This document shows, piece by piece, positions 45,954 to 57,198 of a stretch of DNA of 64,000 nt (within the stretch, counting starts at the first letter, position 1; each line of letters begins with the position of its first letter). The stretch spans positions 248,001 through 312,000 of the forward strand of contig NZ_BMOQ01000006.1 in the NCBI RefSeq assembly GCF_014647155.1, read 5' to 3'. A program made the translations under genes and the position numbers. The notes beneath the pieces were generated by a model. It made no database searches. It was not told the DNA's origin and saw only the letters and a program-made list of their open reading frames with translations. The DNA comes from Halarchaeum nitratireducens. Lineage in GTDB: Archaea > Halobacteriota > Halobacteria > Halobacteriales > Halobacteriaceae.

Positions 45954-46913
45954 TCAGTTAGCGACGCTCGTCTCCTCCAGTTCCTGTACGTACTCACGCA
46001 AGCGCTCGTCGTCGAGAACGTCGAGGAGGAGCTCGTCGTCCAGACGCTCCGCCCACCGCCGTTTAGCGCGCTCCTCCCGTCGTTGGGCTTCCTCGCGATC
46101 CATGTACGACGACTTCATCCGTTCGACGTCCTGCTCCTGGATCTCCCTGAGGTGTTCCGGGTCGATGTCGTGGTCTTCGGGCACACGGTGGGTTCGGAAC
46201 CGTTCGTTCCACGCCTCCTCATCGTCCCACTCGTGATCCACGGTCGACCGGGGCCAGTTCCAAGACCGGTAGGCCGCGACCTTCTCCCAGTACCCCTGAT
46301 CGCGGCGAACGTCGACGACGACAGCCATTCCGACTTCCATCCCGTTCCCCGCCGCAGTGAGCGCCTGCGTCCCTCGACCCACTTGTGCGCCGGCAACGTA
46401 CAGCCCGTCGACAGGTGCCCGTCCCTCCTCGTCAACGTAGTCCAGTGATACGTGTTCGTGCACGTCCCCGTCTCCGTGCTGGTGGGACTCGAACATCTCG
46501 TCCTCGTCGTCCAGTCCCTCGAGGTAGTCGCGGTCGTACGTCGTCGCCGCGACGACGCGGTCCGTATCGACGGTCCGACCCTCCTGTGTCTCGACGCGGA
46601 ACCCACCCGTTTCGCGCTCGTCGACCGAGAGAACCATATCCGAGACGACGGCGCCGCCCGCTTCCTCGACGTGTTCATGTATCAACTCGTAGAACGTCTG
46701 GATGTCGACGCCCCACGGGAACCCGAGGTAGTTCTCTAGGTATGCACACTGGCTGAGTGCCGACCTCCCGCGGTCGAACACGACGGTATCGAGGCCGTAC
46801 TGGGCGGTGTATAGGGCAGCGGCGGATCCCGCCGGACCGCCACCGACGACGACGACGTCGACGTTGTCGTTACTCATACTCGTTTCACCCTCCTCATTAT
46901 TCTCTCCTGCCAT
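45954..46913 (-). CDS. Thioredoxin-reductase-like FAD protein, iron-regulated
   Basis: A 319-residue flavoprotein with an FAD Rossmann motif VVVVGGGPAGSAAALYTAQYGLDTVVFD (starting near residue 18) and the closing GLYVAGAQVGRGTQALTAAGNGMEVGMAVV near 168-198. The NADPH domain and the CxxC of thioredoxin reductases are missing; one Cys is at SQCAYLEN. The last 110 residues are an acidic, helical extension (HEWDDEEAWNERFR ...). Starts at ATG 46913 or 46877. An iron-box palindrome overlaps its start, and the eight binding proteins lie upstream, so reduction of ferric siderophores is a possible role. Confidence 0.75.
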   Translation of the reverse strand: MAGENNEEGETSMSNDNVDVVVVGGGPAGSAAALYTAQYGLDTVVFDRGRSALSQCAYLENYLGFPWGVDIQTFYELIHEHVEEAGGAVVSDMVLSVDERETGGFRVETQEGRTVDTDRVVAATTYDRDYLEGLDDEDEMFESHQHGDGDVHEHVSLDYVDEEGRAPVDGLYVAGAQVGRGTQALTAAGNGMEVGMAVVVDVRRDQGYWEKVAAYRSWNWPRSTVDHEWDDEEAWNERFRTHRVPEDHDIDPEHLREIQEQDVERMKSSYMDREEAQRREERAKRRWAERLDDELLLDVLDDERLREYVQELEETSVAN

Positions 46914-46915
46914 AC

Positions 46916-46933
46916 TTTTAGGCTAGCCTAAAA
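46916..46933 (-). promoter_or_regulatory. Iron-box-like palindrome (DtxR/Idr type)
   Basis: A perfect 18-bp palindrome, ttttaggc-ta-gcctaaaa. It lies directly in front of ATG 46913, with a TATA-like stretch (ttattattttt on the minus strand, 46931-46942) overlapping its far end. It resembles the TTAGG-N-CCTAA motif of DtxR-family metal repressors. The placement over the transcription start fits repression by iron. Confidence 0.75.
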
Positions 46934-47119: not shown

Positions 47120-48298
47120 TTACCGCTCCGTGATCACGCTCGCGAGTCTATCGCGGTCGAATATTTGCTCATCCGCAAACCGGTCCGGATAGTAGAGGCC
47201 GGCGTACCGTTCGAGCATGAACAGATTGTGGAGCGGGCCGCAGAAGATCGGCCCGCCACGGAAGATCTGATCGTTCTGCACCGCGGATAGCTGGCCGCCG
47301 ACCTCGTGCTCGCGGATGTGTGATACGATCGACTCCTCGAACGCCTCACGGGTTCGCGCTTTGCCGCGATACCGAAGCAGGAGCGAGTCAGGATCGATTT
47401 CGAGAAGCGTCTCGTAGTCAATACTACCGCTATCGCTGGTCGAGAATCCGCTGACGTCGGTGTCAGCGAACGCATCGGCGATGCCCAGCGTGTGGAAGTG
47501 TTCCTTGTTCGCGCCCTCCCCCGAGAGGCGGTACGGGTAGAACTCCTCGGGGTCGTCTGGGGCATAGAGGAGCAGTGCGTCGGGCCGCTGGTCCGCCGCC
47601 GGGAGTTCCGCTTCGATAGTCGCGACCGTCTCCTCGTGTATCGATCGGATGGCCTCGAACCGCTCGCGCTCCCGGACCACCGCCGCGACCTTCTCGAACG
47701 CCTCGTACAGCGTGTAGTATCGGTAGTCGTGCCACGGGTCGGTCCGTCGGAAGATGACGTTCCCGAGGAAGGGCGCAACTCCCTCCGCGATCTCCTCGAC
47801 GTCTGCGTTCGACCAGCTGTCGAGAATCCGCGTCAGCCAGTGTGGGTCCATGAGGTGAAAGTCCGCGTCCATCTCGTAGAAGACCTCCTTCGAAACACCG
47901 CCGTTCTTGCTTGCGAGCTGAGTCAGGCTGCTCGAATCGATCGACACGCCGTCGAGTTCGTCGTAGTGGGTCGTTAGGTACTGGCGGCGGGTTCGGATGG
48001 ACTCGACCGCATCGCCGTGACCCAGCGCGACCAGCATGTCGATGTACGTGGGATCACACCCCGCGATCGTCTCGGGGACGCGATCGAACGCGACGGTACC
48101 GGTCGGTTCCATGGTGACCGCGTACGCCCCGTCCGATGTGGCGTTCGTCGCGGGCTCAGTCGCCGTGCGCCTCGGATCCGACCCGTGGTCCACACAGCCG
48201 GCCAGAAGCGACCCAGCGACGACTGCACTTCCGTACTTCATGTACTCTCGTCGAGTCGATGCTTCTGCCGCACTCGCGTTGGTGTTCTCGTTGCTCAT
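47120..48298 (-). CDS. Siderophore-type ABC solute-binding lipoprotein (8th of array)
   Basis: A 392-residue Tat lipoprotein: twin Arg in TRREYMKYGSAVVAGS then the lipobox LLAGC (residue about 33). The ligand-binding core follows the FepB pattern: VAFDRVPETIAGCDPTYIDMLVALGHGDAVESI, then YEMDADFHLMDP. The region SLTQLASKNGG and APFLGN is closest to the fourth array member (51975-53201). It is the last gene of the operon, 1 nt after the seventh. This shortest member has lost some residues between about 170 and 180. It would bind an iron chelate outside the membrane. Confidence 0.87.
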   Translation of the reverse strand: MSNENTNASAAEASTRREYMKYGSAVVAGSLLAGCVDHGSDPRRTATEPATNATSDGAYAVTMEPTGTVAFDRVPETIAGCDPTYIDMLVALGHGDAVESIRTRRQYLTTHYDELDGVSIDSSSLTQLASKNGGVSKEVFYEMDADFHLMDPHWLTRILDSWSNADVEEIAEGVAPFLGNVIFRRTDPWHDYRYYTLYEAFEKVAAVVRERERFEAIRSIHEETVATIEAELPAADQRPDALLLYAPDDPEEFYPYRLSGEGANKEHFHTLGIADAFADTDVSGFSTSDSGSIDYETLLEIDPDSLLLRYRGKARTREAFEESIVSHIREHEVGGQLSAVQNDQIFRGGPIFCGPLHNLFMLERYAGLYYPDRFADEQIFDRDRLASVITER

Positions 48299-48299
48299 T

Positions 48300-49547
48300 T
48301 TAGATTTCCCCGCTAACGATGTCGACGACGGCTTGTCGGTCGAACAGCTGTTCACTCTCCGAAATCTCGGGATACAGCTTACCGGAGCCGTATCCCGGCC
48401 ACTCTCCGAACTGATCGGGGTAGAGCTGCTTGGCCGTCATCTCCAGATTGAAGAGGCTCATGATCGGACCCTGCATCCCGTACCCGGACGGGTAGTAGCG
48501 CTCGTCTCGAAGCGCCGGAATGTCGTCCGCGAGTGGGTTGTCGAGGACCGCTTCGCGACCCTGAATGAACGTCTCGCCGAGGGCGACCCCCCAATACCGA
48601 AGCATCACGTCCGGTTGTGCCTCGACGAGCGCCTCGAAGTCGTAGGATCCGTCGGCCTCCGGACCGCCCTCGATCGTCTCGAACGCGTTCTTGATACCCA
48701 TCGGACGAACATGCGCCCAGATGTAGCCGTCCTGCGTGAAGTCGTACGGCCAGAATGTGCCACCGCTGTAGGCGACGATAGCGACTGACGGCCGTTCGGA
48801 TTCCGGCGGGAGGTTCGCCTGAATCCGAGCGACGAGGTCATCACGGATCGATTTGAACGCCTGGTAGCGTTCCTCTTCCCGGAGAACGGCGGCGATCTTT
48901 TCGATGTACTCCCAGAGCGTGTAGTACTCGTAGCCATCGCGGTAGGCGTCGGGCGGATCGGCGTTTGTTCGGCTGTAGTAGTTCCCGAACCACGGCCCGA
49001 CGTCCTCCGCAATCGCATCGATGTCCTCCTCGCTCCACCCGAACGATGAACTTCGCAGGAGCGCGGGATCGAGGAAGTGAACGTCGCTATCGAGCTCGTA
49101 GAACGCTTCCATATCCAACGCCCCCGGGTCGTCAGCCGACGTGACTCGGCCGAGGTCTTCCCACTCGAAGGTGACCGATTCGAGGCGGTCGTAGTAGTAG
49201 GAGACCGTGTTGCCGAACAGCTGTTTGTCGTATCCGATGGCGTTGATCGACTCACCGTGGCCGAGCGCGACGGCAGTACCCGCCGACAGCGGGTAGTACG
49301 TCAGGAAATCGGATGGAACGCTGTCGAACTCCACGTCCCCGACCGGCGATAGCGTAACCGCGTAGGACCCGGTTGCCGTCGTGGCGGTGTCGGTACTCGC
49401 GTCGCTCGTCGCGGCTGTGTTAGTCGGTTCGTTACTCGTTGTACCGACACACCCGGCGAGCAGTCCCCCACCGACGATCGCGCCGCCGCCCTTGAGGACG
49501 TCTCTGCGCGTCGACACCTCCTCCGTCGTCGTATCACGTGAGGTCAT
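48300..49547 (-). CDS. Siderophore-type ABC solute-binding lipoprotein (7th of array)
   Basis: A 415-residue protein with Tat motif TRRDVLKGGGAIVGG and lipobox LLAGC, a Thr/Ser/Ala-rich linker, and the binding domain. It carries YELDSDVHFLDP and SSSFGWSEEDIDAIAEDVGPWFGNYYSR, the second being shared closely with the fifth gene (50755-51972). ATG 49547 overlaps the previous gene by 4 nt (ATGA). No permease or ATPase is adjacent. The ligand is likely an iron chelate. Confidence 0.87.
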   Translation of the reverse strand: MTSRDTTTEEVSTRRDVLKGGGAIVGGGLLAGCVGTTSNEPTNTAATSDASTDTATTATGSYAVTLSPVGDVEFDSVPSDFLTYYPLSAGTAVALGHGESINAIGYDKQLFGNTVSYYYDRLESVTFEWEDLGRVTSADDPGALDMEAFYELDSDVHFLDPALLRSSSFGWSEEDIDAIAEDVGPWFGNYYSRTNADPPDAYRDGYEYYTLWEYIEKIAAVLREEERYQAFKSIRDDLVARIQANLPPESERPSVAIVAYSGGTFWPYDFTQDGYIWAHVRPMGIKNAFETIEGGPEADGSYDFEALVEAQPDVMLRYWGVALGETFIQGREAVLDNPLADDIPALRDERYYPSGYGMQGPIMSLFNLEMTAKQLYPDQFGEWPGYGSGKLYPEISESEQLFDRQAVVDIVSGEI

Positions 49548-50752
49548 GCTTCGAACTCCCCGTTGATGATGTCCGCGACGCGTCGTCGATCGAAGAGCTG
49601 CTCGTCCGCCGGGAACTCGGGGTACGGACCGCCAGTATAGTCGGGCCACGCGCCGAACCGGTCGGGGTAGAGCTCCTTGGCGACCATCTCCAGCTGGAAG
49701 AAGTTCATAATCGGGCCGCCGTACCGGGCGCTAAGGGGATAGACGCGGTTGTTCTTCACCGCGGAAATCTCGCTGGCGACCGGGTCGTCGCGGAGGTTCT
49801 GCTTCTGCGCCCGCCAATCGTTCGCCCGAGCGAACGCGTTCTCGATGAGGATGACCTCCGGGTCGGCCTCGACGAGCGCCTCCAAGCCGATCGTATCGCT
49901 CTCCGGGATGTCCGCGAGCACGTCGTCGACGCCGAACGGACGCGTGTGCGAACGGATGAACCCGGGACCGTCCATGTGGAAGACCCAGATCGAGTCCAGG
50001 TCCGGAGACATCATCACACGGGCTGTTCGCGGACGCTCGTCGTTCGACGGAACGTTCGCCGCGATCGTCGCGTCGAGGTCGGCTTTGACTTCCGAGAGCG
50101 CGTCGTACCGCGCCCGCTCCTGAAACACCTCCGCGACCTGCTCGAATATCTCCCAGAGCGTGTAGTACTGGTACTGGTCCGCCCAGTCCGCCGGCGGTTC
50201 GCTGTGGTTCCGACTCAGCGCGTTTCCGAACCACGGCGCGACCCCCGTTCGGACTTCCTCGACGTCCGCGGTATCCCACGCGTCCATCGTTGAGACGTAC
50301 GCCGGATCGGCCAGGTGAACGTCGCTGTCGAGCTCGTAGACGATCTCTTTGTCCGGATTCCACGAGTTGTAGAGGTCCGCCCAATCGACAGACACCCCGT
50401 CGAGACGTTCGAGGATCTTGTCGTAGTTGCCCTCGAAGTTGGCGGGACTGTACATCGCGTTGAGCGCGTCGCCGTGACCGAGTGCGACGACCATATCGGT
50501 GTGATGGACGAGGATCGTGAACACGCTCTCCGGCGGCTGGTCGAACTCGACGGTGCCTGCCGGCGCCAGCGTCACCGAGTATGGTTCGTCCTCCTGCGTC
50601 GTCGTGGTCGTCGAATCAGGCGCTGGGGTCGTCGTCGACTCGCCGGCGCTGCCGGTACACCCGGCGAGCAAGCCGCCACCCGCGACCGCGCCGCCGTACG
50701 TCAGGTAGTCACGCCGCGTTGGTGCCTCGTATCGAGTGGTGTCGTGGTTCAT
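49544..50752 (-). CDS. Siderophore-type ABC solute-binding lipoprotein (6th of array)
   Basis: A 402-residue protein with Tat motif TRRDYLTYGGAVAGGG and lipobox LLAGC. Key segments are FTILVHHTDMVVALGHGDAL, ERLDGVSVDWADLYNSWNPDKEIVYELDSDVHLADP and APWFGNALSRNH. The HHxDM pattern links it to the first gene (55743-56960). The stop of the fifth gene lies 2 nt before its ATG. It is probably an extracytoplasmic iron-chelate receptor. Confidence 0.87.
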   Translation of the reverse strand: MNHDTTRYEAPTRRDYLTYGGAVAGGGLLAGCTGSAGESTTTPAPDSTTTTTQEDEPYSVTLAPAGTVEFDQPPESVFTILVHHTDMVVALGHGDALNAMYSPANFEGNYDKILERLDGVSVDWADLYNSWNPDKEIVYELDSDVHLADPAYVSTMDAWDTADVEEVRTGVAPWFGNALSRNHSEPPADWADQYQYYTLWEIFEQVAEVFQERARYDALSEVKADLDATIAANVPSNDERPRTARVMMSPDLDSIWVFHMDGPGFIRSHTRPFGVDDVLADIPESDTIGLEALVEADPEVILIENAFARANDWRAQKQNLRDDPVASEISAVKNNRVYPLSARYGGPIMNFFQLEMVAKELYPDRFGAWPDYTGGPYPEFPADEQLFDRRRVADIINGEFEA

Positions 50753-50754
50753 TG

Positions 50755-51972
50755 TTAGATGTCTCCGTTGATGATGTCCGCCACGCGCTGGCGGTCGAAC
50801 AACTGCTCCCCCTCGGGAATGTCCGGGTACGGCTCACCGTCGACGTAGCCCGGCCACTCGCCGAACGCGTCGGGAAAGAGCTGTTTCGCCGTCATCTCCA
50901 GCTGAAAGAGGTTCATGATCGGCCCCTGCCCGCCGACTCCAGAGGCGTAGACGCGGTCGTTTCGAACGGCGGTCAACTCTTGACCAACGGGGTGGGATTC
51001 CAGTGCTGCCTGCATCTTTGCCATGTTGGTGTCAGGGGTGATTCCCCAGAACTGGAGGATCACATCAGGGTCGAGATCCAGCATCCCTTCGAAATCGAGC
51101 CAACCGGAGTTCTCCTCGAGGCCACCCGCCTCGGCGAACACGTCTGTGGCCCCGAACGGTCGGGTGAACGAACGCGCGTACCCGGGATCGTTGAGGAAGT
51201 ACACGCGGAACTCCTCCTCGTTGTGCATGGTGAGCGCGACGCTCGGTCGCTCCCCCGGTAGCTTCGAGGCGATCTCACTCATCAAATCGGCGTGGACCGC
51301 CGCGAGCGCGTCGTAGCGCGCCCCCTCTCGAAGCACCTGCGCGACCTTCTCGACGATCTCCCAGAGCTCGTAGTACTCGTACGACCCCGCGTAGGCGTCC
51401 GGCGGGGAGCCGTTGAGCCTGCTGTAGTAATTTCCGAACCACGGACCGACGTTTTCGATGATCTCGTCCACGTCCGCCTGACTCCACCCGAACGACGAAC
51501 TCTGAGCCCACGTCGGATCCATGAAATGGACGTCCGAGTCGAGTTCGTAGAGGATCTCCTTGTCGAGGCCGTCGTTGTAGATCTGCGGGAGCGACTCCCA
51601 GTCGGGCGAGACGACGTCGAGGGAGTCGAGGTAGAAGTCGAGGATGTCGCCGTACCACGAGAAGCCGAGGGAGTTGACGGCGTCGCCGTGGCCGAGCGCG
51701 ACCGCGGCGTCCGCGTACAGTTGACTGTACACCATGGCGCTCTCCGGAACGCTTTCGAAAGAGACCTCGCCCACCGGCGACATCGTTACCGAGTACGATT
51801 CACCGTCGGGCGTCTCTGTTTGCCCCCGCGTCAATTCTCCGTTCGACGGTGCGTCATTTTGACGCCCGAAACAGCCCGCGAGGAGTCCGCCACCGACTAC
51901 CGCCCCGCCGTACGTCACGTACTCCCTACGTGTCGGTGCCTCCGTCGTACCCGTCTCGTCGTTGTTACTCAT
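50755..51972 (-). CDS. Siderophore-type ABC solute-binding lipoprotein (5th of array)
   Basis: A 405-residue protein: Tat motif TRREYVTYGGAVVGGG with lipobox LLAGC, followed by the binding domain. YADAAVALGHGDAVNSLGF, YELDSDVHFMDP and QSSSFGWSQADVDEI are visible; the last resembles the seventh gene. The ATG is preceded by the fourth gene's stop at 2 nt. The middle has a Trp/Tyr-rich SYEYYELWEIVEKVAQVL shared with all members. Confidence 0.88.
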   Translation of the reverse strand: MSNNDETGTTEAPTRREYVTYGGAVVGGGLLAGCFGRQNDAPSNGELTRGQTETPDGESYSVTMSPVGEVSFESVPESAMVYSQLYADAAVALGHGDAVNSLGFSWYGDILDFYLDSLDVVSPDWESLPQIYNDGLDKEILYELDSDVHFMDPTWAQSSSFGWSQADVDEIIENVGPWFGNYYSRLNGSPPDAYAGSYEYYELWEIVEKVAQVLREGARYDALAAVHADLMSEIASKLPGERPSVALTMHNEEEFRVYFLNDPGYARSFTRPFGATDVFAEAGGLEENSGWLDFEGMLDLDPDVILQFWGITPDTNMAKMQAALESHPVGQELTAVRNDRVYASGVGGQGPIMNLFQLEMTAKQLFPDAFGEWPGYVDGEPYPDIPEGEQLFDRQRVADIINGDI

Positions 51973-51974
51973 GT

Positions 51975-53201
51975 TTAAATGCCTCCGTTGATGACGTTCG
52001 CAACCCGCTGTCGGTCAAATAACTGCTCGCTCTCGGCGATCTCGGGATACGATCCACCCGTGTAGGTCGGCCAGTCGCCGAAGATATCGGGATAGAGTTG
52101 TTTCGCGGTCATCTCTAGCTGGAAGAGGTTCATGACTGGCCCCTGAAGTGGGTTCCCGCCAGCGTAGACGCAGCCGTTCCGAATGGCCGAGAGCTGTTGG
52201 CCGACCGCGTGGTTCGACAGTTCCTTGCGGAGGGACTCGACGTCGTAGTAGGAGTATCCGTAGCGATGCAGAATGACGTCCGGGTCGATTTCGACCATCG
52301 TCTCGAAATCGTAGGACGACTCGTAGCTGATGTCACCTCCGGCGAACGCGTCCGTCGCGCCCAACGGCCGAGTGTGTGCGTTCGCGAACCCGGGCGTGTT
52401 GATTTTCGCGGGGTAAAACGTCTCATCCATGTAGATCACCGACCCGACGGTCGGCCGCTCACCCTCCGGGGGATGGTTTGACCGGATCGTTGCGAGCAGA
52501 TCGTCGTGTATTGACGCGAGCGCTTGGTATCGCTGCTGTGCCCGGAAGACCTTCGCTACCTTCTCCGAGATTTCCCAGAGTGTGTAGTACTCGTAGTCAT
52601 CTCGGTAGGGTTTGGGTGGTTCGGCGTTCCGGCGGCTATAGTTGTTCCCGAAGAACGGTGCGATGTTCTCCGTGATCTCCTCGACGTCGTCGACGCTCCA
52701 GCCGTCAAAGGAAGCGACGAGCGAGGGATCGACGAGGTGGAGGTCGGAGTCCAATTCGTAAAACACCTCCATATCGACGGTGAGATTCCCCGATCCAGTG
52801 TTGAGCTGCGTGAGGCTCTCGTAATCGAAGGAGACACCATCGAGGTGCGCGTAGAACGCATCGAGCGCGCTCCCGACATCCGTGCTGAATCCGAGGGAGT
52901 TCACCGCGTCCCCGTAGCCGTATGCGACGGCCATGTCCGCGTACAGGAGGTTGTACACCATTACGCTCGTCGGCGGCTCTTCGAGCTTGACGGTTCCCGC
53001 CGGTGCCATCGTCACCGAATACCTCTCGCCCTCCTGCGTCGACGTGTCTGTCTCGTTCTCATCTCTTTCGTTCGGTGTCGCCCCGGACTCGGACTGGCCT
53101 GCACATCCGGCGAGCAGGCCGCCGCCGATGACCGCGCCGCCGTACTTCAGGTAGTCGCGCCGCGTCGGTGCCGCTGTCGTGTTCGCGTCGTCGTCGGTCA
53201 T
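51975..53201 (-). CDS. Siderophore-type ABC solute-binding lipoprotein (4th of array)
   Basis: A 408-residue protein with Tat motif TRRDYLKYGGAVIGGG and lipobox LLAGC. It has LLYADMAVAYGYGDAVNSLGF, YELDSDLHLVDP and APFFGNNYSRRN; SLTQLNTGSGN relates it to the eighth gene. It ends DRQRVANVINGGI. The stop-start distance to the neighbours is 2 nt on both sides. Like its paralogs it would be exported folded by Tat and held by a lipid. Confidence 0.88.
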   Translation of the reverse strand: MTDDDANTTAAPTRRDYLKYGGAVIGGGLLAGCAGQSESGATPNERDENETDTSTQEGERYSVTMAPAGTVKLEEPPTSVMVYNLLYADMAVAYGYGDAVNSLGFSTDVGSALDAFYAHLDGVSFDYESLTQLNTGSGNLTVDMEVFYELDSDLHLVDPSLVASFDGWSVDDVEEITENIAPFFGNNYSRRNAEPPKPYRDDYEYYTLWEISEKVAKVFRAQQRYQALASIHDDLLATIRSNHPPEGERPTVGSVIYMDETFYPAKINTPGFANAHTRPLGATDAFAGGDISYESSYDFETMVEIDPDVILHRYGYSYYDVESLRKELSNHAVGQQLSAIRNGCVYAGGNPLQGPVMNLFQLEMTAKQLYPDIFGDWPTYTGGSYPEIAESEQLFDRQRVANVINGGI

Positions 53202-53203
53202 CG

Positions 53204-54502
53204 TCAGATGTCACCGTTGGTGATGTTCGCGACCCGCTCGTGATCGAACAACTGCTCGTCGGGACCGAACGCCGGATAGGAGTCGCCGTTCTCGTAGTCA
53301 GGCCACGCACCGAACTGCTCGGGGCAGAGCTGCTTGGCGGTCATCTCGAGCTGGAAGAGGTTCATCAGTGGCCCCTGCCAGCGCGTCCCCTGCACGTACA
53401 CCCGGTCGTTCTGCACGGCGGCCAACTCGCTTCCCACGGGGTCGTCTCGCAGATTCTGCTCCATCTGTTCGAAATCGACCTCTTCCGTGACCGTCCAGAG
53501 TGTGAGAATCGCGTCCGGGTCGGCGTCCAGCAGCGCCTCCGTGTCGAGTCGCTTGAACGGACCCTCCAACTCCGCACCGCCGAACACGTCGATCGCGCCG
53601 AGCGGCCGGGTGTGGGCGTTCCAGTAGCCGGGCGCGTTCAGTCGGAGCCGGTAGATGTCGGCCAGGTCCTCCCTGAGGGAAAGGTACGCGACGGTCGGCC
53701 GTTCCGACTCCGGCGGCAGCCTGTCTTCGATGGTCCCGAGCAGGTCGTCGTGGACGGACGCGAGCGCTTCGTACCGTTCTCGCTCCCCGTACAGCGTCGC
53801 GACGCGATCGAACAACTCCCACAGCGAGTAGTACTCGTACCCGTCGGCCCACTCCTCCGGCGGCGTGGCGTGGTAGTTGCTGTAGTAGTTGCCGAGCCAC
53901 GGCCCGACGTTGTTCGACACTTCGTCGATGTCGCTTCGGTTCCAATTGTCCTCCGTCGTTACCCACGCGGGGTCCACGAGGTGGAGATCGCTGTCGAGTT
54001 CGTACAGCTGCTCCTTCGCGAAGCCGTACTCCCCCGCCTTGTCCGCCCACTCGATCTCGAAGTCGTCGAATCCGGCGGTGAAGTACTCGAGACCCGCGAC
54101 GGTCCCGTCCCACCAGAGGTAGTTGATGGTCTCACCCCGACCGAGCGCACTGGCCATGTCCGGGAACCACGGGAAGTGGGTGAACACGTTCGTCGGGGGT
54201 TCCTCCAGCGAGACCGTGCCGACGGGCGATAGGTCGACCGTGTAATCAGACTCCGTCGTCGAGGTCGTCTCGCTCCCCTGCTCGGTCGCCTGAGTCGTCT
54301 CCGCTGTCTGCGTCGATTCACCCGTCGGTTGGCTGGAACATCCCGCGAACAGTCCCCCACCTACGACCGCGCCGCCGTATTTCACGTACTCCCGTCGAGT
54401 CCGTTCGATTCGCCCACTTCCTCGACGACGTCCCGCTCGCTGGCGCTCGCTCGAAGCACGCCGCATCGGCGTTTCAGTCGTCTTCTCGTCGTCGTCACCC
54501 AC
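53204..54502 (-). CDS. Siderophore-type ABC solute-binding lipoprotein (3rd of array)
   Basis: At 432 residues the longest member. It has an extra basic N-terminal stretch (RRASSERQRAGRRRGSGRIER) before the Tat motif TRREYVKYGGAVVGGG and lipobox LFAGC. Then follow FTHFPWFPDMASALGRGETI, YELDSDLHLVDP and GPWLGNYYSN. It begins with a GTG at 54502, placing it 2 nt from the previous stop, as in the rest of the array. A later start within the basic stretch cannot be excluded. Confidence 0.85.
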   Translation of the reverse strand: MGDDDEKTTETPMRRASSERQRAGRRRGSGRIERTRREYVKYGGAVVGGGLFAGCSSQPTGESTQTAETTQATEQGSETTSTTESDYTVDLSPVGTVSLEEPPTNVFTHFPWFPDMASALGRGETINYLWWDGTVAGLEYFTAGFDDFEIEWADKAGEYGFAKEQLYELDSDLHLVDPAWVTTEDNWNRSDIDEVSNNVGPWLGNYYSNYHATPPEEWADGYEYYSLWELFDRVATLYGERERYEALASVHDDLLGTIEDRLPPESERPTVAYLSLREDLADIYRLRLNAPGYWNAHTRPLGAIDVFGGAELEGPFKRLDTEALLDADPDAILTLWTVTEEVDFEQMEQNLRDDPVGSELAAVQNDRVYVQGTRWQGPLMNLFQLEMTAKQLCPEQFGAWPDYENGDSYPAFGPDEQLFDHERVANITNGDI

Positions 54503-54504
54503 GG

Positions 54505-55740
54505 TCAGATCTCTCCGTTAACGATGTCCGCGACCCGCTCGCGGTCGAATAGCTGCTCACTCTCGGGAATCTCGGGGTAGTCTTCACCGTCGACGTACCC
54601 GGGCCACTCGCCGAGTTGTTCGGGGTAGAGCTGCTTGGCAGTCATCTCCGTCTGGAAGAGGTTCACTATTGGTCCCTGGTATCTGACGCCCTGTGCGTAG
54701 ATGCGGTCGTTCTTCGCGGCCGAAATCGTCTGCCCGACCGGGTCGTCCCGGAACCGCTCTTTCGTCTCCGCGATACTGTAGCTTGAGGAGAGTCGGAACA
54801 GCGCGAGGACGACGTCCGGGTCCGCTTCTGCCATCGCCTCCATATCGACCTGGGCGTTCCGCTCGAAGTCCATGTCGGCGAATGCATCGACCGCACCGAG
54901 CGGACGGGTGTTTGCGGCGAGGAACCCGGGCGCGTTCAGATGGAAGACGCCGACGTGGTCTTCGACTGGGAAGGTGAGCGCGACGGTCGGTTGCTCGTCC
55001 TTCGGCGGGCGTTTTTCTTCCACCGTCGAAAGCAGCTGCTGGCGTTCCTCGTAGAGGGCCTGATAGTGCTCTTTCGCCTGAAAAACTTCGGCCACCTTCT
55101 CGAAGATCTCCCACAACGAGTAGTACTGGTACCCGTCTGCCCACTGCGTCGGTGGCGTCGAATGCGTGTTGCTGTAGTAGTTCCCGAACCACGGCGCGAT
55201 CTGTTCGCGGATCTCTTCGATGTCCGCCTGATCGAGAGAGTCCAACGTCGTGGCGTAGGCCGGGTCGGTCAAGTGAACGTCGCTGTCGAGCTCGTAGAAT
55301 CCCTCCTTCCCGAGCCCCCACGTGTCTTCGAGGTTCTTCCAGTCGAGCGAGACGCCGTCCAGCCGCTCGTAGAAGTGGTTCAGTAACGTGCCGTGGTACT
55401 CGGGGAAGTAGATTGAGTTGATGGCGTCCGCTTTCCCGGCCGCGATCGCCATGTCAGCCGTGTTCGGCAGCCCGGTGTACACGGCCTCTGGAACAGAGTC
55501 GAAGCTGACCTCGCCCATCGGCGCCATCGCCACCGAGTAAGACTGCCCGCTCTGCGAACTCGTTTCGGATGTCGTCGTGGATTCTGTCTCGTCCGCCGTC
55601 GTTGCCCCTGAGGTCGTTGAACTGGGGTCACCGCCGGAACAGCCAGCGAGCAGCCCCCCGCCGATGACCGCCCCACCGTACGTCACATAATCTCGTCGCG
55701 TCGGTGCTTCTGTTGTATTCGTGTCGGTGTTGTCACTCAT
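54505..55740 (-). CDS. Siderophore-type ABC solute-binding lipoprotein (2nd of array)
   Basis: A 411-residue protein with Tat motif TRRDYVTYGGAVIGGG and lipobox LLAGC, then a Thr/Ser-rich linker. The binding domain shows YTGLPNTADMAIAAGKADAINSI, YELDSDVHLTDP and APWFGNYYSNTHSTPPTQWADGYQYYSLWEIFEKVAEVF. The WADGYxYYSLWE stretch is shared with the third gene. The ATG at 55740 leaves a 2-nt gap to the first gene's stop. Confidence 0.88.
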   Translation of the reverse strand: MSDNTDTNTTEAPTRRDYVTYGGAVIGGGLLAGCSGGDPSSTTSGATTADETESTTTSETSSQSGQSYSVAMAPMGEVSFDSVPEAVYTGLPNTADMAIAAGKADAINSIYFPEYHGTLLNHFYERLDGVSLDWKNLEDTWGLGKEGFYELDSDVHLTDPAYATTLDSLDQADIEEIREQIAPWFGNYYSNTHSTPPTQWADGYQYYSLWEIFEKVAEVFQAKEHYQALYEERQQLLSTVEEKRPPKDEQPTVALTFPVEDHVGVFHLNAPGFLAANTRPLGAVDAFADMDFERNAQVDMEAMAEADPDVVLALFRLSSSYSIAETKERFRDDPVGQTISAAKNDRIYAQGVRYQGPIVNLFQTEMTAKQLYPEQLGEWPGYVDGEDYPEIPESEQLFDRERVADIVNGEI

Positions 55741-55742
55741 AT

Positions 55743-56960
55743 TCAGAACTCTCCCTTGATGATGTCCGCGACGCGTTGGTGGTCGAACAGCTGGTCCTCC
55801 TTGGAAAAGTCGGGGTATGCTCCACCGTCGTACGCCGGCCATTCGCCGAACTGCTCGGGATAGAGCTCCTTGGCGCCCATCTCGAGCTGGAAGAGGTTCA
55901 TAATGGGGCCACCGAACCGAACGCCGAGTGGATAGATGCGGTCGTTCTTGACGGCCGGTATCTGTTGGGCGACCGAGTCGGTACGGAGTTCGGTCTTGAC
56001 CTGTGTCCAGTTCGCCCCCGGTGAGACGCCACCCGTTCGCAGAATGACGTCCGGGTCGGCTTCGACGAGTGCTTCGAGGTCGATTTGCGCGCCGACCCGC
56101 ATATCGGCGAACGCGTCTTCGACACCCAGGGCCCGCGTGTGCGCCCGATAGAATCCCGGGCCGTTCATACTGTACGCCCAGATTCCCTCACTCACACCGG
56201 ACGGGGAGATGAGCACCCGTCCCGTTCGGGGTCGTTCGTCCGCGGGCGGGAGGTTCGACCGAATCGTCGATAGCAGGTCCTCGTGGACCGCTGCGAGGGC
56301 TTGATATCGCTCTTCCTCCTGGAAGACCCGGGCGACGCGCTCGAAGATCTCCCAGAGGTCGTAGTACTCGTAGTCATCCGCCCATTCAGCGGGGGGCTCA
56401 CCGTGCTGGCCACTGAACGAATTTCCGAACCACGGTGCGACGTTCTCGTGGACTTCGTCGATGTCTGCGGTAGTCCAGCTGTCCATCGTCGCGACCTTCG
56501 CAGGATCGGCGAGATGAACGTCGCTGTCCAGTTCGTAGAGTTGCTCCTTTCCCGGATTCCACGATCCGTACAGGTCCGCCCACTGGACGGAAACGCCATC
56601 GAGCCCGTTCAGGAACCGATTGTAGAGTCCCTCGAACAGGCTGGGATTGAAGATGGCGTTAACGTCATCACCGTGCCCGAGCGCGAGCGCCATGTCGGCG
56701 TGATGAGCGAGGATGGTGAATGCCGCCTGCGGCGATTCAGTGAACTCGACGTCACCCATCGGCGCCATCGTCACCGAGTACGACGAATCGCTCGGAGTCG
56801 TCGCCTCTGTGGTCGTGTCTCCACCCACAGTCGTGGTCGTCTCGTCCATCCCGCCGCCGCCCGAACAGCCGGCGAGCAGGCCGCCGCCGACGACCGCCCC
56901 GCCGTACGTCACGTACTCCCTCCGCGTCGGTGCTTCGTGTTCCGCGTCGTCGTCTGCCAT
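55743..56960 (-). CDS. Siderophore-type ABC solute-binding lipoprotein (1st of array)
   Basis: The promoter-proximal gene, 405 residues. It starts MADDDAEHEAPTRREYVTYGGA, with Tat RR and lipobox LLAGC at about residue 32. Family core: FTILAHHADMALALGHGDDV, WNPGKEQLYELDSDVHLADP, APWFGNSFS. The HHxDM segment links it to the sixth gene. The ATG follows an iron-box palindrome by 4 nt with a TATA box behind it, so the entire eight-gene operon is predicted to be induced by low iron. Confidence 0.88.
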   Translation of the reverse strand: MADDDAEHEAPTRREYVTYGGAVVGGGLLAGCSGGGGMDETTTTVGGDTTTEATTPSDSSYSVTMAPMGDVEFTESPQAAFTILAHHADMALALGHGDDVNAIFNPSLFEGLYNRFLNGLDGVSVQWADLYGSWNPGKEQLYELDSDVHLADPAKVATMDSWTTADIDEVHENVAPWFGNSFSGQHGEPPAEWADDYEYYDLWEIFERVARVFQEEERYQALAAVHEDLLSTIRSNLPPADERPRTGRVLISPSGVSEGIWAYSMNGPGFYRAHTRALGVEDAFADMRVGAQIDLEALVEADPDVILRTGGVSPGANWTQVKTELRTDSVAQQIPAVKNDRIYPLGVRFGGPIMNLFQLEMGAKELYPEQFGEWPAYDGGAYPDFSKEDQLFDHQRVADIIKGEF

Positions 56961-56964
56961 GCGT

Positions 56965-56980
56965 TTTAGGCTCGCCTAAA
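56965..56980 (-). promoter_or_regulatory. Iron-box-like palindrome of the binding-protein operon
   Basis: tttaggc-tc-gcctaaa is a 16-bp inverted repeat with 7-bp arms, the same sequence family as the box at 46916-46933. It lies between the ATG at 56960 and the TATA-like aaatatagt at 56983-56991. A weaker partial match, ttaggtcagccaaaa (57002-57016), lies upstream of the TATA box and may be a second site. Confidence 0.75.
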
Positions 56981-57198
56981 GAACTATATTTGCTTCGGTT
57001 CTTAGGTCAGCCAAAACCTACCTCGGCCGGTGGACTTCACTCGTCTCGAAGAGTCACTCTATCCGCCCTCCGAAGACGCTTACAGACCAGCTACTGCCAT
57101 CTCTCGTCGTGCCTACTGCGTCCGACGAATCCACCGTCGTCGCTGACGAGCGCCGTATCCGCGGCCCGACCCGTCGAGAGAGGACGGGCACCCACCCG

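Follow-up and report, generated by a model that had tools for sequence, protein, structure and literature searches.

The window analyzed here, a 64 kb stretch of contig NZ_BMOQ01000006.1 of Halarchaeum nitratireducens, carries eight consecutive genes for solute-binding lipoproteins (S8 to S1 in order of transcription) at positions 47120-56960. We consider it likely that these genes form an iron-starvation operon for receptors of ferric chelates of different kinds, and that the receptors share a transporter encoded elsewhere in the genome. In the proposed mechanism, a DtxR/FerR-family repressor would leave its operator when iron is low and all eight receptors would be made, exported in folded form by the twin-arginine translocation (Tat) pathway and anchored to the membrane. 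Each would bind a different ferric siderophore, and these would mostly be the products of other organisms, because no IucA/IucC synthetase was found. The loaded receptors would then dock on a FecCD permease used in common, most likely that at C2:355788, for which the single FepC-type ATPase at C1:100078 would supply the energy, and the iron would be released in the cytoplasm, perhaps by a linked flavoprotein. If the remote transporter is indeed shared, one import channel serves many scavenged iron sources.

The receptor array and its putative operator

All eight open reading frames (ORFs) lie intact and tightly packed on the minus strand, encode 392-432 aa and follow each other at spacings of 2, 2, 2, 2, 2, -4 and 1 nt, with start codons internal to the longest ORFs for S7 (55740), S2 (49547) and S1 (48298). 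By motif, each product has a Tat-type lipobox leader (RRxx...LLAGC or LFAGC) with a twin arginine, a hydrophobic stretch and a cysteine, and we predict that S1-S8 are Tat-exported lipoproteins. Profile searches of the window found no permease or ATPase gene, and tblastn of the window with the genome's four FecCD permeases and FepC-type ATPase gave nothing significant, on which ground a decayed permease beside the array was rejected. A complete type II (FecCD/BtuCD-type) importer is thus not encoded with the receptors; candidate permease and ATPase genes are on other contigs (C1, C2 and so on). All of this bears out the first-pass annotation of the window, which had described the number, strand, sizes and coordinates of the genes, their 1-2 nt gaps and one 4-nt overlap, the twin-arginine leaders and the lack of an adjoining permease or ATPase.

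It had also allowed that the proteins might fall outside the FepB/PF01497 fold, and they did not: all eight matched PF01497 (Peripla_BP_2) above its curated cut-off (E 9e-9 to 5e-13, 35.5-49.6 bits vs 27.5), and the curated NCBI family models gave weak sub-threshold matches only. The AlphaFold2 (AF2) model of S8, the first gene of the array (55743..56960, minus strand, 405 aa; PF01497 E 6.6e-12), was built on a 67-row alignment, reached a mean predicted local distance difference test score (pLDDT) of 89 and has the fold of siderophore-binding proteins, with a long helix (residues 216-236) that connects its two lobes. Its nearest solved structures in Foldseek are mainly siderophore receptors, namely YfiY (schizokinen), HtsA (staphyloferrin A), CeuE and FepB, at E ~1e-12 to 1e-10 and target-normalized template modeling (TM) scores of 0.58-0.76, with catecholates among the ligands. 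S1-S8 are thus class III-type (FhuD/FepB/BtuF-type) solute-binding proteins of the ferric-siderophore fold, and we predict that they bind siderophores; the earlier label "FepB-like" holds at the level of the fold and not beyond it. A different ligand, such as heme, B12, an F420 precursor or another cofactor, is very improbable. A ligand is not determined by the fold alone, and weak sub-threshold matches to IsdE (heme) and to the F420-0 receptor model TIGR03868 were found, but both score far under their curated cut-offs, most of the best structural matches bind siderophores, and the array has the operator common to a putative iron regulon.

This putative DtxR/FerR-type iron operator is the perfect palindrome TTAGGCGAGCCTAA (TTAGGCNNGCCTAA) at 56966..56979, which ends 5 nt before the start codon (ATG) of S8 and closely follows a TATA-like stretch rich in A+T; a motif search gave a degenerate second copy with two mismatches at 57002..57015. 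Searched over the whole genome at up to one mismatch, the operator pattern had 19 sites, compared with 2 for the reversed control. Every other receptor gene of the array's kind is preceded by it at a distance of a few nucleotides (on C1, at four C2 loci, at C7:78.8k and on C8), and it is absent from two receptor loci, C7:28k and C3:354k, which by their context may be B12-type. In a survey across genomes, 120 of 123 receptor runs had the strict form of the operator in the 150 nt upstream of them, compared with 1.3% of random stretches from the same loci; some of the loci are closely related, so that not all of the runs counted are independent. Because the palindrome precedes the surveyed receptor units so consistently, the array is very probably a member of the haloarchaeal iron regulon (DtxR/FerR-type). 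In Haloferax, the FerR regulon signal has been reported before all fhu operons (PMC11349517). We infer that the palindrome is this published signal, and we predict both binding of a regulator to the operator and induction of the array.

Further operator sites in the window genome (G000) precede a DoxD/halocyanin pair, a secreted Tat protein and a set of secreted CARDB proteins with an apparent resistance-nodulation-division (RND) permease. Another one, with one mismatch, lies at C7:5971 (L037 3472), upstream by roughly 1 kb of the gene for a DtxR-family protein (PF01325) that is possibly the regulator of the operator set. In the CARDB set, the operator at C1:151585 (L032 3586-7001) is followed first by the genes for the CARDB-domain secreted proteins and then by that for the apparent RND permease; the H. 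volcanii pair HVO_A0466/A0467, which these genes resemble, has reportedly been proposed as a schizokinen exporter. A search of the window genome for an IucA/IucC synthetase, the one siderophore route looked for, had no match while the Haloferax and E. coli controls were positive, and siderophore synthesis of its own by this route was rejected. Because a genome with operator-linked CARDB/RND genes has no IucA/IucC, we question schizokinen as the general substrate of HVO_A0466/A0467-like exporters.

Receptor numbers, docking residues and the predicted partner

Profile searches of the window genome counted 18 PF01497 matches, four FecCD permeases (on C1, C2, C7 and C8) and two clear FepC-type ATPases. 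Two receptors and the C7 permease with its FepC-type ATPase, beside a putative B12-type receptor, are outside the operator set, leaving about 16 receptors, three FecCD permeases (C1, C2 and C8) and one FepC-type ATPase (C1:100078) linked to the operator. One of the 16 receptor genes, C2:150745-151404 (L018 3578-4780), is broken by a stop codon and is either a decaying family member or the result of a sequencing error. No FepC-type ATPase is adjacent to the C2 or the C8 permease (L016 and L014, respectively); the latter is followed by a FetA/FetB-like pair of an ATP-binding cassette (ABC) ATPase and a UPF0014 protein. Among 242 genomes of the class, FecCD permeases ranged from 0 to 6 per genome and first-look receptor candidates reached 22, with the window genome second at 21 (at most 11 receptor candidates per genome were scored, and the receptor totals of this survey are lower bounds). 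It is a general trait of the class that permeases are few and receptors vary in number.

In the vitamin B12 importer of E. coli, the glutamates E72 and E202 of BtuF dock on arginines of BtuC. Their counterparts in S8 are E139 and E296, which are among seven mature columns invariant in 200 aligned receptors and present in all eight array proteins, and the equivalents of BtuC R56, R59 and R295 are kept in all four of the genome's own permeases (C1, C2, C7 and C8). The MAFFT alignment placed BtuF clearly and FhuD poorly or ambiguously; profile-profile comparisons against individual E. coli sequences gave too weak a signal to be used. Such glutamate-arginine salt-bridge contacts have been reported as indispensable in FecB, FhuD2 and FeuA (PMC3741162).

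The docking residues bear on the suggestion, made in the first-pass annotation, that some of the proteins act as surface stores or scavengers. Permease-independent surface proteins of this kind would be lipid-anchored stores, buffers or decoys for iron chelates that never dock on a transporter. They would suit a window of 64 kb without a permease, and among 20 examined loci with arrays of at least three receptors, seven, including the window, have no permease inside the locus (mostly 10 kb and at most 10 kb on each side, so that a permease further out is possible at some of them). We nevertheless give this explanation very little weight because the docking glutamates are strictly conserved, which we take as the main evidence against it, and close relatives of the eight are found in permease-containing arrays. 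The other suggestion made there was that several receptors use one transporter whose genes lie elsewhere; the regulon, the docking residues and the 16:3:1 ratio all lend it good support.

As to which transporter this would be, related receptors elsewhere have a permease as neighbor, in many cases together with its ATPase (L040, L079, L102, L114, L117 and L118). The most informative of these loci is L117, a receptor array in another genus of the same family (genome G019), where orthologs of S3, S5 and S6 are arrayed directly behind a FecCD permease that is 84.5% identical to the C2 permease; the best matches of the C1 and C8 permeases in the set did not exceed 60-67%. The C2 locus itself has the order receptor-receptor-flavoprotein-permease, and in H. 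rubridurum three receptors are followed by a flavoprotein and a permease. Because a close relative of C2:355788 sits with the S3, S5 and S6 orthologs, and the C2 and H. rubridurum loci combine receptors, flavoprotein and permease, C2:355788 is most likely the partner permease of the array. Linkage to permeases in relatives, together with the operator, also points to import rather than to sensing. Haloarchaea do use solute-binding lipoproteins for the latter, as BasB and CosB of Halobacterium present their ligands to a chemotaxis transducer, but there is no transducer among the examined genes beside the array, and a role of S1-S8 in chemotaxis appears scarcely conceivable.

Mosaic origin and linked genes

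The eight receptors share only 35-60% identity with each other, and most of them have closer relatives in other genera (up to 92%) than among their siblings in the array. The best relative of S8 is from Halovenus (62%). All other members also match PF01497 and lie on the minus strand: S7 (54505..55740, 411 aa) is nearest to a Haloarcula pellucida protein (62%); S6 (53204..54502, 432 aa), which has a long N-terminal extension, is 92% identical to an L117 protein; S5 (51975..53201, 408 aa) has relatives in Halarchaeum rubridurum (70%) and L117 (66%); S4 (50755..51972, 405 aa) has a best relative of ~55% and no close ortholog in the set; S3 (49544..50752, 402 aa) matches proteins of L117 (83%) and L121 (75%); S2 (48300..49547, 415 aa), which overlaps S3 by 4 nt, matches Haloarcula salina (69%) and L121 (67%); and S1 (47120..48298, 392 aa), the last and most divergent member, is 60-65% identical to Haloarcula proteins. 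Trees placed the eight on separate branches, and a tree with all of them in a single clade was rejected (approximately unbiased test, p-AU 6.9e-6). Judged from these comparisons, the array brings together receptor types that are old and distinct. Recent tandem duplication is ruled out by the identities, the relatives elsewhere and the one-clade test, and because the eight are so divergent, so is an assembly artifact that collapsed or multiplied copies, about which the first-pass annotation had cautioned.

The same divergence argues against redundancy, that is, all or most of the receptors binding the same chelate while the array raises their number and a remote permease is still shared. There is one promoter region before one operon-like gene run, class III receptors can be promiscuous, and ligand classes are not readable from these sequences, all of which would fit. 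Dosage, however, predicts near-identical copies, and the eight are old lineages whose orthologs have been kept apart in other genera, so that we regard redundancy as rather unlikely. Some points nevertheless weigh against distinct receptors on a common transporter. Separate tree branches need not imply separate ligands, and conservation of the docking residues does not prove one common permease for all eight. Moreover, the assembly consists of 27 contigs and is 98% complete, such that a further permease could be missing, and with no FepC-type ATPase adjacent to the C2 and C8 permeases, sharing of the ATPase is likewise deduced.

The high and uneven similarity across genera suggests transfer of single genes between them. 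It is possible, though we find it somewhat easier to doubt than to accept, that there is an exchangeable receptor library, in which single receptor genes with their own ligand ranges move between haloarchaeal genera into iron-controlled arrays and a small constant core (here three permeases and one ATPase) serves all of them. The clearest case that we found is the window array, which has no transporter and whose members have relatives in at least five genera. If there is such a library, an organism without a siderophore pathway of the IucA/IucC type comes to pirate a wider range of siderophores as it gathers receptors.

Downstream of S1 on the same strand lie a flavoprotein gene and then a tyrosine recombinase gene. 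The flavoprotein gene (45954..46913, minus strand), which the first-pass annotation had not listed with the array, begins 206 nt downstream of S1 and has a putative operator of its own, the perfect palindrome TTAGGCTAGCCTAA at 46918..46931, 4 nt upstream of the gene. Its product of 319 aa resembles thioredoxin reductases but is FAD-only, with no CxxC, no separate NADPH domain and a helical C-terminus (PF07992, E 3e-11; AF2 fold; 31-member alignment), and its AF2 model is closest to TTHA0370, which consists of the FAD domain only. Relatives that are 35-50% identical lie within 2.5 kb of 60 of the 123 receptor runs. They keep the FAD-binding half of thioredoxin reductases without the NADPH domain, most have the helical C-terminus, and none of those listed has a CxxC, so that they do not qualify as thioredoxin reductases, which have both a CxxC and an NADPH domain. 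Family members with the same operator stand beside receptors or permeases at L016 (5922-6854), L117 (5203-6117) and L118 (11128-12042). We found no description of the function of this family; from gene context, our guess is a ferric-chelate reductase.

A HEAT-repeat gene also stands beside receptor operons in three genomes, at L016 (9460-10521, PF13646) and, assigned by sequence resemblance, at L117 (16839-17876) and L118 (13265-14293). The tyrosine recombinase (PF00589, 44383-45642) was considered as an integron-like capture device, but it has no profile relative near other arrays and is treated as coincidental. The upstream neighbor of the array is an unrelated DUF58-type gene, and the G+C content of the array stretch is ~62-63%, compared with 68-69% at the receptor loci on other contigs.

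Relation to known systems

The array suggests that siderophores are pirated in hypersaline communities, and no ligand has been measured for any haloarchaeal siderophore receptor that we know of. With about 16 receptors, three permeases, apparently one ATPase and one operator, the genome offers a natural test of the promiscuity of an ABC importer core, and the eight array receptors, which have diverged naturally and should fit the same permease, would be useful for dissecting specificity.

The type II importers BtuF-BtuCD, FhuD-FhuBC and FepB-FepDGC have the same receptor fold, and the docking glutamates and permease arginines match those of BtuF and BtuC, but they combine one receptor with a permease and an ATPase and have no array of Tat lipoproteins. 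Bacillus subtilis has several receptors of different ligand range per cell, and in it FhuD and YxeB share one permease; unlike the window genome, it has a few receptors at most per permease and no long receptor operon. Its siderophore receptors are FeuA, FhuD, YxeB, FpiA, YfmC and YfiY, of which FeuA also imports the siderophore of another species (PMC5411514).

The statement in the first-pass annotation that no system like this had been described was too strong. Haloferax volcanii has 11 fhuD paralogs and 2 fhuG permeases, and several of its fhuD receptors are more abundant under iron starvation (PMC11349517). This fhuCGD system resembles the one described here in its many receptors, few FecCD-type permeases and a regulon signal before each operon. 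It differs in that the main text of PMC11349517 has no eight-receptor, permease-free operon and in the ratio of ~16:3:1 found here. Tandem arrays linked to a permease are also present in several haloarchaea, and those found to be of equal or greater length have this linkage. Natrialba aegyptia L040 (at least 11 receptors), Natrinema versiforme L079 (8) and L117 (5 plus 1) share the receptor subfamily, the tandem packing and the operator with the window, and L079 and L117 share the flavoprotein gene as well. All three have a FecCD permease in the cluster (L040 and L079 also an ATPase), whereas the window array has none. We found no paper describing the receptor arrays themselves in the literature searched. 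The parts and the principle of many receptors per permease are already known, and the form that they take here is unusually large and detached; new are the longest permease-free array among the examined loci, its mosaic origin and its predicted partner.

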